Part shown: one piece after another, positions 37,373-62,519 of the stretch
How the letters are laid out: every line of letters begins with the position of its first letter
How positions within the stretch are numbered: the stretch's first letter is position 1
NCBI RefSeq assembly: GCF_019443125.1
Contig: NZ_JAHYXK010000003.1
Span: 1-64,000 of the forward strand
Length of the DNA stretch: 64,000 nucleotides
DNA from: Pontibacter aydingkolensis
GTDB taxonomy: Bacteria; Bacteroidota; Bacteroidia; Cytophagales; Hymenobacteraceae
Direction: 5' to 3'
Position numbers and translations under genes: made by a program
Notes under the pieces: generated by a model
Seen by the model: the letters and a program-made list of their open reading frames with translations, nothing else
Told to the model about the DNA's origin: nothing
The model's database searches: none

Positions 37373-37621
37373 CCAAACTGGTAACCCTTAAGCTTTTAAG
37401 ATAAAAGAGGAGTTTGAAGTTGATGCTCATAACTGTGACATTGAAGGTTAAACAAATGTAGCCTTGCAGTCACCCGCTGTCAAGATGCACATCGATTGTA
37501 CACCTTATAAATCAATCAGTTACGTGATATCTGGTGAGTAAATTTATTGCTTTCACAAACTCACCAAATCACTCACCTAAACTTTGCAAAAAAGTGGCGA
37601 ATTTGGTAAACTTATAAAAGC

Positions 37622-58076: not shown

Positions 58077-58268
58077 TTACTGTACTGGAGCAACAGTAGT
58101 GTCAGCCTCAACAGCAGTAGTGTCTTCTACTACAGTCTCTTCCACAACTGGAGTTTCTTCAACAACTTCAGTCTCAACTGCTTCAGTTTCAGTAGTTGCT
58201 TCTTCGTTGTTGCAAGCTGTGAAAGAAAGAGCAAGAGCTACGATAGCGAAAGTGAATAAATTTTTCAT
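58077..58268 (-). CDS. small Thr/Glu/Val-rich lipoprotein
   Basis: 63 residues. Signal peptide MKNLFTFAIVALALSFTAC with a lipobox cysteine at 19; the rest is a low-complexity acidic repeat of T, E and V (EETPVVEETVVEDTT). Probably a lipid-anchored tail with little fold. Its promoter has the same GGGTTAC-N16-TATAAA pattern as the divergent sigma-factor gene, so it is likely part of that sigma regulon. Function unknown. Confidence 0.7.
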   Translation of the reverse strand: MKNLFTFAIVALALSFTACNNEEATTETEAVETEVVEETPVVEETVVEDTTAVEADTTVAPVQ

Positions 58269-58309: not shown

Positions 58310-58338
58310 TTTATACCGGAACCGTAGATAGGTAACCC
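58310..58338 (-). promoter_or_regulatory. ECF-type promoter of the small lipoprotein gene
   Basis: Minus strand GGGTTAC (58338-58332), 16 nt, then TATAAA (58315-58310). The same motif and spacing occur on the plus strand before the sigma gene (58373-58401). Leader about 35 nt. Confidence 0.6.
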
Positions 58339-58372: not shown

Positions 58373-58401
58373 GGGTTACAATCCTGCCTTTAATGTATTA
58401 A
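58373..58401 (+). promoter_or_regulatory. ECF-type promoter of the sigma-factor gene
   Basis: GGGTTAC (58373-58379), 16-nt spacer, TATTAA (58396-58401). Mirrors the lipoprotein promoter. Suggests the sigma factor drives its own gene. A start near 58408 leaves almost no leader before ATG 58414. Confidence 0.6.
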
Positions 58402-58413
58402 AAATTGACTGGA

Positions 58414-58986
58414 ATGAAGAAGAGTTTGTATGAGACGGATGAGGCGGTGATAGAAGGCATCCGGCGCGACGACGAGCGCGCGCTGGCTTATCTGTACAAA
58501 CTTTATTTCCCGATGATCTCTCATTTTATTTTGAGCAACAGCGGAACCGACGACGAGGCCAAGGACATTTACCAGGAAGGCGTTATCGTGTTCTATGAAA
58601 AAACAAGAGATAACAGCCTGGAACTTAGCTGCCAGATAAAAACGTACCTGTACTCTGTCTGCAGAAGGCTATGGCTGAAAAGACTGGCTGAAAAAGGACG
58701 CTACGCCTCTAAACTGGAAGAAACAGACAGTTTTGTGCAGGTTGAGGAAGACACCAGTCAGCACGAGGAGCAGGAAAGGCAGTTTGGCGTGATGGGTGAG
58801 GCGCTTGGCCAACTGGGGGAACCCTGCCGCTCTTTATTAGAGGATTATTACATTAATACTCAAAGCATGCAGGTAATTACGGAGAAGTTTGGTTACACCA
58901 ACTCTGATACCGCTAAAAACCAAAAGTATAAATGCCTGCAACGCCTTAAAAAGATATTTTTTGCCACCTATAAGCCAGGTGTTTAA
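58414..58986 (+). CDS. ECF RNA polymerase sigma factor
   Basis: 190 residues. Region 2: ALAYLYKLYFPMISHFILSNSG, DEAKDIYQEGVIVFYEK. Region 4 is a helix-turn-helix ending with NQKYKCLQRLKKIFF. Start ATG 58414 is used because the upstream TTG 58405 lies before the likely transcription start. It is followed 46 bp later by a membrane protein with an anti-sigma-like N-terminus and a protease domain, and shares its promoter pattern with the small lipoprotein. This is not the FecI type. Confidence 0.88.
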   Translation: MKKSLYETDEAVIEGIRRDDERALAYLYKLYFPMISHFILSNSGTDDEAKDIYQEGVIVFYEKTRDNSLELSCQIKTYLYSVCRRLWLKRLAEKGRYASKLEETDSFVQVEEDTSQHEEQERQFGVMGEALGQLGEPCRSLLEDYYINTQSMQVITEKFGYTNSDTAKNQKYKCLQRLKKIFFATYKPGV

Positions 58987-59032
58987 TATAAGCTTAAATA
59001 ATAACGAGGCTTTTGGCCATATTTAAACAAAG

Positions 59033-60118
59033 ATGTTAGAGTACCGCGCTTACGAACAGATTGAACGCTACCTGAACGGAGAAATGGCAATAGAGGAGCA
59101 GCAGGCTTTTGAGGCTTTGTTGCATACTGATGTGCGCCTTGCCGAGCAAGTACGTGAGCACAAGCAACTGCTCGATTCCATGCAAAAGTATGGCAGGCGA
59201 CAGGCGCTGAAACAGCAGTTACAAAATATTCATGCAGATATGGAGGCTGAAACCATGCAGGCCTCGCCAGGCGCCTGGAAAGTATTCTGGAACCGCCACA
59301 TGCAAACTGTTGCCGTTGCCGCAAGCGTATCTTTATTATCTGTTTTCGGTACACTTTGGAGTGTACAACAACTAAAGGCACCAGTACAGCAACAAACAGC
59401 GCGCTACGTAGAGCTTCGCCGTGAAGTAGAGCGCCTCAAAAAAACACAAACAGCTATTATCAATGGTATAAATGACGCCTCTAAACCAGCACCCCGCGCG
59501 GCTGCATTTAGCGGAACCGGCTTTGCTATTTCTGCTGACGGCTACCTGGTTACCAGTTCGCACGTAGTGGAAGGCGCCGACTCTATCATGATCGAGAACA
59601 AAGCTGGTTTAAAGTATAAAGTAAGCGAAGTATACCGCGACGAAATTCATGACCTGTCTATACTTAAGGTTTCAGACCCTGCCTTTTCTGGTTTCGGTAA
59701 GCTGCCTTATACTTTTAAAACAAACGAGTCTGATCTTGGCGAGAAGGTTTTCACGTTAGGCTACCCGCGCGAAGACATCGTTTTCGGCGAAGGCTCCCTT
59801 AGCTCCGGTTCCGGCTTTGAAGGCGACACAACCTCTTATCAGGTTTCTATACCATTAAACCCAGGCAACAGCGGCGGCCCCTTACTCGACGACAAAGGCA
59901 ACCTGATCGGTGTTATCAGTGGTAAACAGGCAGGTCAGGAAGGTGCAGCTTTTGCAGTTAAGTCGGCTTACCTGTTGCAAATGATTCACGAATTGCCGGC
60001 TTCTACTACTATGGCGCCCATGTCTCTTTCTAAGCATAATTCACTTTTAGGAGTTTCGAGACCTCAACAGCTAAAAAAACTAAAAGACTACGTTTTTGTG
60101 GTTAAGGTCTATAATTGA
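59033..60118 (+). CDS. membrane protein: anti-sigma-like N-terminus fused to HtrA-like serine protease
   Basis: 361 residues. Cytoplasmic anti-sigma-like segment (about 1-70: YEQIERYLNGEMAIEEQQAFE), a membrane segment (about 91-111, QTVAVAASVSLLSVFGTLWS), a coiled coil (about 120-145), then a trypsin-like S1C protease in the periplasm with catalytic H177 (SSHVVEGAD), D207 (IHDLSILKV) and S280 (NPGNSGGPLL). No PDZ domain. It probably holds the sigma factor encoded just upstream and couples release to periplasmic proteolysis; that link is inferred from context. Start at ATG 59033. Confidence 0.82.
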   Translation: MLEYRAYEQIERYLNGEMAIEEQQAFEALLHTDVRLAEQVREHKQLLDSMQKYGRRQALKQQLQNIHADMEAETMQASPGAWKVFWNRHMQTVAVAASVSLLSVFGTLWSVQQLKAPVQQQTARYVELRREVERLKKTQTAIINGINDASKPAPRAAAFSGTGFAISADGYLVTSSHVVEGADSIMIENKAGLKYKVSEVYRDEIHDLSILKVSDPAFSGFGKLPYTFKTNESDLGEKVFTLGYPREDIVFGEGSLSSGSGFEGDTTSYQVSIPLNPGNSGGPLLDDKGNLIGVISGKQAGQEGAAFAVKSAYLLQMIHELPASTTMAPMSLSKHNSLLGVSRPQQLKKLKDYVFVVKVYN

Positions 60119-60272: not shown

Positions 60273-60935
60273 ATGAAAAAGAGATTATTAACACCGGTTA
60301 TTGCAGTTGCAATAGTATCTTGTTCACTATTCGGCTGCGCAGGGTCCAGTGAGACCACAGCCATGGAATCTACTACCATGAGCGAAACGCAAACAATGGC
60401 TGGCGATACCGAGATGGAGACAACTACCTCTCCTGCCCTATCTGTTACAAACGAGGAGGAATATGATGAGATGTTTACCAATGTTGATGATACAAAGCAA
60501 TATGATCTCATTTCCTTAGCCAAAATCAGCCCTAACTTATCAACTTTTGCCACCCTGGCAGAAACAGCAGGCATAGCCAACGCACTTACCGCGGATGGTA
60601 AATACACTATTTTTGCACCTACAAACCAGGCATTCAGTTCTATGCCAAGAGCAAAACTTGAAAGGCTTTCAAAGCCTGAGAATAAGGCTGAACTAATCAA
60701 AGTCCTTCAGCTCCACATTTTGCCTAACGAGGTGGCGTCTACCCGCCTATCAGACAACCAGCGCATTAAAGCCGGCGAGGATCAGTATATCACTATAAAT
60801 GTGGATAGTAACACCCGTGCTGCTACCATAGGAGGCGCCACCATCATGCGACCTGATATAGAAGCATCTAACGGGGTTTTACACGTAATAAATGGTGTAA
60901 TAACCACCACTCCTGGCACAGGTATAACCCGGTAA
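60273..60935 (+). CDS. fasciclin (FAS1) lipoprotein, copy 1
   Basis: 220 residues from ATG 60273; an upstream ATG at 60228 would add 15 residues before the signal peptide. Lipobox SLFGC, a Thr/Met-rich linker, then one FAS1 domain (about 85-218): LAKISPNLSTFATLAETAGIA, YTIFAPTNQAFSSMP and VLHVINGVIT. FAS1 domains mediate adhesion or protein binding at the cell surface. First of three tandem copies. Confidence 0.85.
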   Translation: MKKRLLTPVIAVAIVSCSLFGCAGSSETTAMESTTMSETQTMAGDTEMETTTSPALSVTNEEEYDEMFTNVDDTKQYDLISLAKISPNLSTFATLAETAGIANALTADGKYTIFAPTNQAFSSMPRAKLERLSKPENKAELIKVLQLHILPNEVASTRLSDNQRIKAGEDQYITINVDSNTRAATIGGATIMRPDIEASNGVLHVINGVITTTPGTGITR

Positions 60936-61054
60936 TCACCCGAAAAGCATTTATTAAATAGCCTATACTTTGCTAATAATAAAGTGTAGTCTAAAACCTT
61001 ATCCGGACAATTAAGTTGTCCGGCTGATCAATTTTTAACTTAAAATTTAGAATT

Positions 61055-61747
61055 ATGAAAATGATAAAACCTTTAGCTGTAGCAGCCTTTGCATCTACAG
61101 CACTATTTGGTTGTGCAAGCTCTGATACTACAGCCGACACAACTACTATGAGTGAAACGCAAACCATGGCAGGTACAACGGCCGATATGGATGACGCAGA
61201 AAGTGTGGTAGTAGAAAGAGAGGTAGCTGTACCGGTTGCCACCATAACTCTTGCTACGTTATCCCTCACTAATACAGAGGATGTAAGTGATATGTTTGAG
61301 AACATAGATGATTCTGAGAAGTATAACCTGATTGAACTGGCTAAGATGAGTCCGAACCTAAGCACTTTTACTCAGTTGGCAGAAGCAGCAGGTATTTCCG
61401 ATGACTTGATGCGTGATGGAGACTTTACACTTTTTGCACCGACAAACGAAGCTTTCTCTAAGTTATCAAAAGAGGATCTGGAAATGTTGTTGCTACCGGA
61501 AAACAAAGCTAAGCTGGCTGCAGTACTGCAGACTCATGTGCTTCCTTCAAAAGTATCCTCTACTATGTTTAATAATAGCCAGCGTATTACATTGGCAAAC
61601 AACAGATACATACCTGTTAGTGTAGATAATAATGTTATCTCGTTAGGAGGCGCCACTGTACAGGTTTCTAACGTAGAAGCATCTAATGGTTACATACACG
61701 TTGTGGACAGCGTAATCATACCTAGCCAGGATGCAATAGACAAATAA
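61055..61747 (+). CDS. fasciclin (FAS1) lipoprotein, copy 2
   Basis: 230 residues. Lipobox ALFGC, Thr-rich linker with TMSETQTMAG shared with copy 1, then FAS1 (about 90-225): LAKMSPNLSTFTQLAEAAGI, FTLFAPTNEAFSKL and IHVVDSVII. It lies 119 bp after copy 1. Followed by a terminator. Confidence 0.85.
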   Translation: MKMIKPLAVAAFASTALFGCASSDTTADTTTMSETQTMAGTTADMDDAESVVVEREVAVPVATITLATLSLTNTEDVSDMFENIDDSEKYNLIELAKMSPNLSTFTQLAEAAGISDDLMRDGDFTLFAPTNEAFSKLSKEDLEMLLLPENKAKLAAVLQTHVLPSKVSSTMFNNSQRITLANNRYIPVSVDNNVISLGGATVQVSNVEASNGYIHVVDSVIIPSQDAIDK

Positions 61748-61773
61748 GTAAGCGATCAACAAGATTAGATATT

Positions 61774-61808
61774 AAAGGCTCTTCCTCTGCAGGGAGGGCT
61801 TTTTTTTA
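61774..61808 (+). terminator. terminator of FAS1 copy 2
   Basis: Imperfect hairpin AAAGGCTCTTCCT / AGGGAGGGCTTT with one bulge, followed by a T run of eight. Confidence 0.7.
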
Positions 61809-61874
61809 TGTGAAATACCCCTGAACATAAGTTTACCGTAGTAAAAGCTTAAAAGACATAACTCTAATAAGACT

Positions 61875-62519
61875 ATGAAAACAAAACATGGATATCCACT
61901 TTTTATAATTGCTATAGCCTCAATGTCACTGCTGGGGTGTGCCAGTTCTGATACTAATACAGATACAACCACAGGCACTACACTGGAAAGCGAAATAAAG
62001 GAAGACACCTCAGGTTCTAAGAAGGCAATGGACCCAGACACAGATATGACGGCAGAAGATACTACAGATACTAATGTATCGGCCAGCAATCAGATTGGCA
62101 GGGAGATGAACATAGTTGCACTTGTACAGCAGAATCCAAATCTGTCTACCTTTCTGGAACTTATAAAGGCGGCGAACATGATCGTAACTTTAGAAAGTCC
62201 TGCACCCTACACCGTGTTCGCTCCCACAAACCAGGCTTTTGCAGCATTACCAGCAGGTACAGTAGAAGCCTTTAAACAACCTGGCAACGAGCTGGAACTA
62301 AGGCGGCTGATACAGTCCCATATTCTTCCTAACAGAATTACCTCAGCAGATATACGTGATAATATGCCAATGAAGACAGCCCAGGGAGAAGAGGTGATTG
62401 CAAGGAGAAAAGGACAAACTTTTACGGTGGGTGGAGCCACAGTATTAACTGCTGATGTAAATGCATCGAATGGTGTGGTGCACATAATAGACAAGGTACT
62501 TGTGCCGCCAAAAGAATAA
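61875..62519 (+). CDS. fasciclin (FAS1) lipoprotein, copy 3
   Basis: 214 residues. Lipobox SLLGC, Thr/Asp-rich linker, FAS1 domain (about 75-212): LVQQNPNLSTFLELIKAANM, YTVFAPTNQAFAAL and VVHIIDKVLV. The most divergent of the three but of the same order. 127 bp after copy 2 with its own start region. Confidence 0.85.
   Translation: MKTKHGYPLFIIAIASMSLLGCASSDTNTDTTTGTTLESEIKEDTSGSKKAMDPDTDMTAEDTTDTNVSASNQIGREMNIVALVQQNPNLSTFLELIKAANMIVTLESPAPYTVFAPTNQAFAALPAGTVEAFKQPGNELELRRLIQSHILPNRITSADIRDNMPMKTAQGEEVIARRKGQTFTVGGATVLTADVNASNGVVHIIDKVLVPPKE

Follow-up and report, generated by a model that had tools for sequence, protein, structure and literature searches.

A putative anti-sigma factor and a trypsin-like protease joined in one membrane protein beside an ECF sigma factor gene in Bacteroidota

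A gene pair in the Pontibacter aydingkolensis DNA analysed here (the window, a stretch of 64,000 nucleotides) encodes an ECF sigma factor and, directly behind it, a protein that joins a helical anti-sigma-like domain, one membrane helix and a trypsin-like protease in one chain. Synteny, homology and modelling give good support both to this one-chain build and to its association with the sigma factor. The reading that we favour, and consider somewhat more probable than its competitors taken together, is of a self-contained envelope-stress circuit in which a membrane anti-sigma factor would carry its own site-1 protease and the sigma factor would drive envelope-lipoprotein genes. As far as sequence goes, this circuit is supported by the architecture, the catalytic triad, the linkage to the sigma gene, the homology of the N-terminus, a promoter motif and the lipoprotein genes behind that motif. 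Sigma binding, a trimer, self-cleavage, the S2P step and the signal are what we infer. Normally a separate site-1 protease with a sensor of its own is needed to free a membrane anti-sigma factor, and the fusion would depart from this arrangement.

The sigma factor gene and the fusion gene

The sigma factor gene (58414..58986, forward strand) encodes 190 amino acids. Its product matches TIGR02937 (sigma70-ECF; E 1.3e-17, 63.9 bits against a cut-off of 42.9, residues 23-180) and Sigma70_r2 (25.6 bits, cut-off 24), both above cut-off. Region 4 gave no separate Pfam match in the 190-residue protein. After a gap of 46 bases comes the fusion gene (59033..60118, forward strand, 361 amino acids), which is identified by domain matches, a structural model and conserved neighbours. 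The original prediction of an ECF sigma factor followed by a one-chain fusion was exact in both coordinates and frames.

All parts of the fusion are given on the forward strand. Residues 1-78 (59033..59266) make up the helical anti-sigma-like domain. Hydropathy shows a single hydrophobic stretch, with 93-111 as the best 19-residue window, and the one membrane helix that had been predicted falls at residues 92-112 (59306..59368), a part of the model with low confidence. Next comes a predicted periplasmic helix at residues 121-147 (59393..59473; low to moderate model confidence), a stalk and a possible coiled coil. The monomer model has helices at 2-14, 20-32, 34-76, 81-112 and 121-147. The helix of the proposed coiled coil was therefore recovered, but because pLDDT is below 50 at residues 92-125 and 144-154, its coiled-coil nature comes down to a predicted helix of low to moderate confidence. 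The trypsin-like (DegS-type) protease spans residues 159-320 (59507..59992), with the codons of the triad at 59561 (H177), 59651 (D207) and 59870 (S280). The chain ends in a conserved helix-strand tail at residues 341-361 (60053..60115), where a PDZ domain would be.

Three tandem lipoprotein genes lie 3' of the fusion gene (60276-62519, forward strand); Thr/Glu-rich stretches follow the lipobox of their products. Fasciclin is matched by the first two products, and the third is alike by eye. Strict scans for the promoter motif described below found no site 5' of these three genes.

Distribution of the gene pair

A scan of a genome collection gave 55 named loci, and in 54 of them the gene of a full fusion has a sigma homologue directly upstream. 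The nearest of these loci, from P. cellulosilyticus, is 94% identical, and in 7 of 54 loci the two genes overlap by 4 bases. They were also adjacent in a further 20 of 20 fusion loci (L089-L108). When the 27 closest sigma matches in a 69-genome order sample were fetched (L249-L275), a fusion gene followed all 27. Chance pairing of the two genes was considered as an explanation and is ruled out by the 54 of 55 named loci together with the further locus sets. One locus, L088, was left out of the alignments and promoter counts; it encodes a Deg-type protease that by eye has a PDZ domain, and no sigma gene was found there.

How widespread is the module? From the window's own family 150 genomes were sampled, and each has some match, in a tally that does not separate fusions from other proteases. 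A survey across Bacteroidota had been suggested along with the original prediction. A full or near-full fusion is listed in 21 of 296 genomes of the phylum sample, spread over several families (3/3 genomes in f1, 1/2 in f3, 7/7 in f4 and 10/10 in f5). The order sample adds the fusion-bearing families f53, f54, f58, f62-f65 and f69. As a guess, f4 probably corresponds to Sphingobacteriaceae and f5 to Chitinophagaceae, and a family used below for comparison, f7, probably to Flavobacteriaceae.

The protease domain and a proposed mechanism

Trypsin_2 (PF13365) matches residues 161-294 of the fusion with an E value of 3.8e-22 (80 bits, cut-off 27.6). The protease model superimposes on DegS-deltaPDZ (2qf0_F; Z 19.5, rmsd 2.2, 169 residues) and on HtrA1 (3tjn_B; Z 20.0, rmsd 4.5, 172 residues), the two being tied. 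HtrA-type NCBIfam models are matched by 24 of 24 family members, with the window protein far below their cut-offs; against the DegS equivalog TIGR02038 it reaches 54.2 bits, where the cut-off is 422.95. H177, D207 and S280 had been numbered correctly in the original prediction and are invariant in all 102 aligned rows, the window included, a set in which at least four genomes appear twice and some loci are near-identical. No PDZ domain was matched in the fusion at E<=1, and the chain runs on for only about 40 residues beyond the protease domain. HtrA/Deg proteases have a trypsin-like domain with a His-Asp-Ser triad and at least one C-terminal PDZ domain; the fusion shows the first of these features, with a DegS-like fold, and not the second.

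Alignments A1 and A3 have 24 rows (the window plus 23 of the 54 loci) and A2 has 15 (the window plus 14 of the 54). Of seven regions measured, the tail (residues 341-360) is the best conserved: averaged over the 23 rows that A1 holds besides the window's, its identity to the window protein is 71.5%, compared with 66.5% for the protease and 40.0% for the N-terminus. In the model the tail forms a helix (343-351) and a strand (354-360). Proteases of the same type at L109-L113 occur in secreted or lipoprotein form, have no anti-sigma part and by eye carry a comparable C-terminal tail, so the tail seems to be part of the protease module. Perhaps it takes the place of the PDZ domain.

The circuit might work as follows. 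At the inner membrane, the ECF sigma factor would be held by the N-terminal helical domain of the fusion, which the single transmembrane helix would connect to the PDZ-less, HtrA-type protease in the periplasm. The fusion is probably trimeric via its protease core: HtrA proteins act as trimers, according to PMC11642142, and such a trimer would bring three inhibitor chains together. A disturbance of the envelope would activate the protease, which would then cut the juxtamembrane segment of its own or a neighbouring subunit, acting as a built-in site-1 protease. What suggests this self-cutting step is that all rows have an intact triad and that the protease is tethered close enough to its stalk to reach it. 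Degradation would then be completed by an S2P-type intramembrane protease and by proteases of the cytoplasm, and the sigma factor would be freed. S2P-family genes are present in the genome, which says little since they are also present in 14 of 14 control genomes. Once free, the sigma factor would transcribe from GGGTTAC-N15-GTATNAA promoters, the predicted targets being its own operon, the divergent acidic lipoprotein gene and a few further envelope genes. Transcription of its own operon would act as feedback and would also yield fresh inhibitor-protease. A single substitution at S280, together with a reporter driven by a GGGTTAC promoter, would be enough to test sensing and cutting in the fusion.

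What if the protease does not cut its own chain? In this scenario the fusion is a membrane anti-sigma factor with a built-in quality-control protease that degrades misfolded envelope proteins. The sigma factor would be released either because the occupied and empty states of the protease shift its conformation or because another protease makes the first cut. The protease evidently has a job of its own, given that its relatives at L109-L113, with a tail judged comparable by eye, exist without an anti-sigma part, and the lack of a PDZ domain means that there is no known peptide switch. However, membrane anti-sigma factors are usually freed by site-1 proteolysis (PMC8103513, PMC12203970), and in the fusion the anti-sigma chain itself carries a protease whose triad is intact. 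We regard the quality-control scenario as unlikely, although it is the alternative that fares best. Self-cutting remains the preferred reading. Its most far-reaching version is distinctly doubtful: anti-sigma factor and site-1 protease in a single chain, which would sense envelope damage through the protease core and the conserved C-terminal tail in place of a PDZ domain, cut itself in trans within the trimer and be tuned by feedback from the small acidic lipoproteins made under its sigma factor, making a complete sense-cut-respond loop out of one operon and a divergent gene across many Bacteroidota families.

The N-terminus as an anti-sigma domain

The fusion has two features of a membrane anti-sigma factor: its gene adjoins a sigma gene in 54 of 55 named loci and it has a single transmembrane helix. 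Against NF052375 ('anti-sigma factor') the window fusion scores 24.1 bits (E 3.1e-5), below the cut-off of 100. The same model is matched at E<=0.01 by 21 of 24 family members, the best with 1.6e-9. Pfam gave no consistent family on the 24 N-termini. The anti-sigma-associated family zf-HC2 was weakly matched by 10 of them (best 0.0035). The hallmark of zinc-binding anti-sigma (ZAS) domains is a His/Cys zinc motif, and residues 1-82 of the window fusion contain no Cys and hence no motif of the ZAS type.

The best support comes from relatives of the sigma factor whose partner has no protease. At the three loci fetched next after the 27 closest sigma matches (L276-L278), the sigma gene is followed by the gene of a plain transmembrane protein; these are next in the order of fetching, not in rank, since three better or equal matches between were left out. 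The N-terminal profile of the fusions aligns with that of these plain partners in HHalign with a probability of 97.6% (E 2.8e-12). Fusions and plain partners thus appear to be of the same sigma/anti-sigma stock, with an exchange of the periplasmic part. NCBIfam on the three plain partners gave faint anti-sigmaE matches in two (0.016 and 0.082). The plain partners also share, by eye, a short C-terminal region of their own, perhaps the mark of another envelope circuit.

Structure adds a hint. Modelled alone, the N-terminal domain reaches a pLDDT of 88. Foldseek against the whole PDB returned three matches at E<=10, two of which are the anti-sigma factors RslA and RsiW, each in complex with a sigma factor. 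At E values of 6.8 and 9.8 and Z scores of 5.2-5.7, which helical bundles reach by their arrangement alone, this likeness of the model is suggestive, not significant. The N-terminal profile searched against PDB sequences gave chance-like matches only (PPAR, 14-3-3 and others; best E 0.059) among the best 60 of 129.

The anti-sigma-like N-terminus claimed at the outset is therefore upheld by the relatives, through the 21 of 24 NF052375 matches and the homology to the plain partners, but not by the score of the window protein itself, which stays below cut-off. Poor scores against anti-sigma models are to be expected in this phylum, since a published survey recognised a class I anti-sigma domain near only 6% of Bacteroidetes ECF sigma factors (PMC7406223). 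N-termini that score poorly against known families, such as those described here, may belong to the missing Bacteroidetes anti-sigma set.

One observation against the anti-sigma reading concerns family f3, in which three of three fusions seen (L254, L259 and L264) start at profile position 40-41, with the first two N-terminal helices missing. These natural truncations are still encoded directly downstream of a sigma gene.

Could the N-terminus be no inhibitor at all, and the fusion a membrane-anchored protease that is a mere member of the sigma regulon? The weak anti-sigma scores and the truncation in f3 would fit. However, the N-terminus shares homology with the transmembrane partners of a related sigma factor, NF052375 is matched by 21 of 24 members, and the strict gene pairing with its 4-base overlaps points the same way, so this idea is improbable. 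Another suggestion, to which we give slightly less credence still, is that the fusion is a co-activator or dual regulator of the sigma factor whose protease makes the active fragment. A role as co-activator or dual sigma regulator has been proposed for RskA (PMC7509140). In favour, the fusion was never apart from the sigma gene in the fusion loci examined. Against this, inhibition is the commoner mode of anti-sigma factors.

Comparison with known systems

The proposed circuit is of the same kind as the sigma-E/RseA/DegS and RsgI systems; what is new is the combination of inhibitor and serine protease in one chain, the absence of a PDZ domain and the lipoprotein-centred set of predicted targets. 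The E. coli sigma-E/RseA/DegS/RseP system likewise consists of an ECF sigma factor, a single-pass membrane anti-sigma factor and a periplasmic protease of the DegS fold, and RseA is cleaved by DegS and RseP (PMC3306311; for DegS also PMC8103513). In contrast, inhibitor and protease are here one chain with a conserved tail in place of the PDZ domain, and small acidic lipoproteins make up most of the predicted targets. The original prediction spoke of a single-chain sensor-inhibitor-protease. Both the one-chain architecture and the association with the sigma factor hold, through synteny, homology and modelling, but the analogy with RseA/DegS is weakened: with no PDZ domain, and so no signal input of the DegS kind, it leaves the switching-on of the fusion protease unexplained.

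RsgI-type anti-sigma factors of Clostridium thermocellum and Bacillus subtilis are similar in that the anti-sigma chain itself would make the first cut; RsgI cuts itself (PMC12203970). However, RsgI uses an autocleavage domain, whereas the periplasmic part of the fusion is a trypsin-like protease with a tail, and no RsgI-type autocleavage domain was matched by Pfam in the window fusion at E<=1. The plain single-pass partners described above (L276-L278) resemble the fusion in their homologous N-terminus, single transmembrane helix and gene position right behind the sigma gene, but their periplasmic part is no protease.

MarP-type serine proteases have a membrane-anchored trypsin domain without PDZ. 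Their model NF033740 is the second-best NCBIfam match and is found by 24 of 24 members, although the window protein reaches 76.2 bits, far below the cut-off of 250. To our knowledge MarP has no anti-sigma domain. Literature searches, going by titles and the openings of abstracts, brought up no anti-sigma/trypsin fusion that we recognised; work on the classification and evolution of ECF sigma factors may mention such a group. The module could show how switches of this sort sense damage without the usual separate parts.

Promoter motif and predicted targets

A divergent gene upstream of the sigma gene (58077..58268, reverse strand) is an ORF for a putative acidic, Thr/Glu-rich lipoprotein of 63 amino acids with a signal peptide, a lipobox Cys and a low-complexity tail; Pfam gave no match to it at E<=0.01. 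Two putative sigma-dependent promoters lie in the intervening DNA. One points toward the lipoprotein gene (GGGTTAC-N15-GTATAAA, 58310..58338, reverse strand) and the other, putatively autoregulatory, toward the sigma operon (GGGTTAC-N15-GTATTAA, 58373..58401, forward strand). Promoters were counted in 55 rows, the 54 named loci plus the window. Of these rows, 53 have a forward site GGGTKAC-N15-GTAT before the sigma gene, 48 have the reverse site toward the divergent lipoprotein gene and 48 have both. A short divergent ORF with a lipobox (55-79 amino acids) is found in 53 of 55; the lipobox rule is loose and was satisfied at 233 of 2000 random positions. The sigma factor probably controls the adjoining small lipoprotein gene, and a regulator is thereby proposed for tiny acidic lipoproteins that have no Pfam family.

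Strict motif counts were compared with counts of the reversed pattern as control. In Pontibacter, 73 strict sites were found in 26 of 26 genomes against 4 control sites, 51 of them at the sigma locus and 22 elsewhere. Family f4 has 44 sites in 19 of 21 genomes against 1 control, and f5 has 32 in 17 of 20 against 12, a control that is not low. Family f7, with one site in 21 genomes against 4 controls, is at chance level. None of its 29 members in the phylum sample had a full match, which is why f7 is treated as free of the fusion; of the 21 genomes scanned for the motif, 2 (G302 and G329) were among those searched for the fusion. The window's own genome holds three strict sites against one control, two at the sigma locus and one before a DUF2062 gene, and relaxed scans there are little above control (6 versus 3, and 15 versus 9), so the case for a regulon rests on relatives. 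The motif drifts or is absent in more distant sets, as the strict form is missing before 7 of 20 (L089-L108) and 16 of 27 (L249-L275) sigma genes.

Perhaps the GGGTTAC elements are instead an inverted-repeat operator of another regulator and the lipoproteins no sigma targets, as the two sites at the locus, facing apart as an inverted pair, might suggest; but sites away from the locus stand alone, the spacing of 15 bases to the second element GTATNAA is preserved and site density tracks the families that hold the fusion, which makes this the least credible of the alternatives.

What stands behind the sites, read as sigma promoters, can be listed for f4 and f5, where 67 distinct sites out of 76 motif sites were classified. 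They precede 24 sigma genes, 32 small ORFs with a lipobox (one of them, L236, counted for two neighbouring sites) and 11 other genes; at random positions of these loci the lipobox rule was satisfied 260 times in 2000. Among the 11 others are four DUF4349-like lipoproteins (two tested; L190 and L203 assigned by eye only) and three AMPK1_CBM-like proteins (two tested, one above cut-off; L226 assigned by eye only). In Pontibacter, 20 of the 22 sites away from the sigma promoter pair were examined, with Pfam run on one member per type. Nine lie before genes for another kind of small acidic lipoprotein and four before one for a Polysacc_synt_2 dehydratase; four are unclear, and the others precede one copy of the divergent lipoprotein, one DUF4349 protein and one AMPK1_CBM protein.

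The second lipoprotein family (L154-L156, L158-L161, L163 and L164) is of an MKK type by eye, most members having EEQPP-like ends, and is unlinked to the sigma locus; at L164 the start of the lipoprotein falls within a longer ORF whose own start is 5' of the motif. In the four Pontibacter genomes with the Polysacc_synt_2 dehydratase (L166-L168 and L170; Pfam on L170 only), the motif is 13-15 bases before the start codon, and the window's own genome has such a dehydratase gene with a GGGTGAC variant of the motif (L123/L186). DUF4349 lipoproteins follow the motif both in Pontibacter and in f4 (L165, L195 and L202; L190 and L203 by eye). Finally, in one genome the lipoprotein promoter occurs twice in identical form, 656 bases apart (G013:C37:36874-36902 and 37530-37558), which suggests a local duplication.
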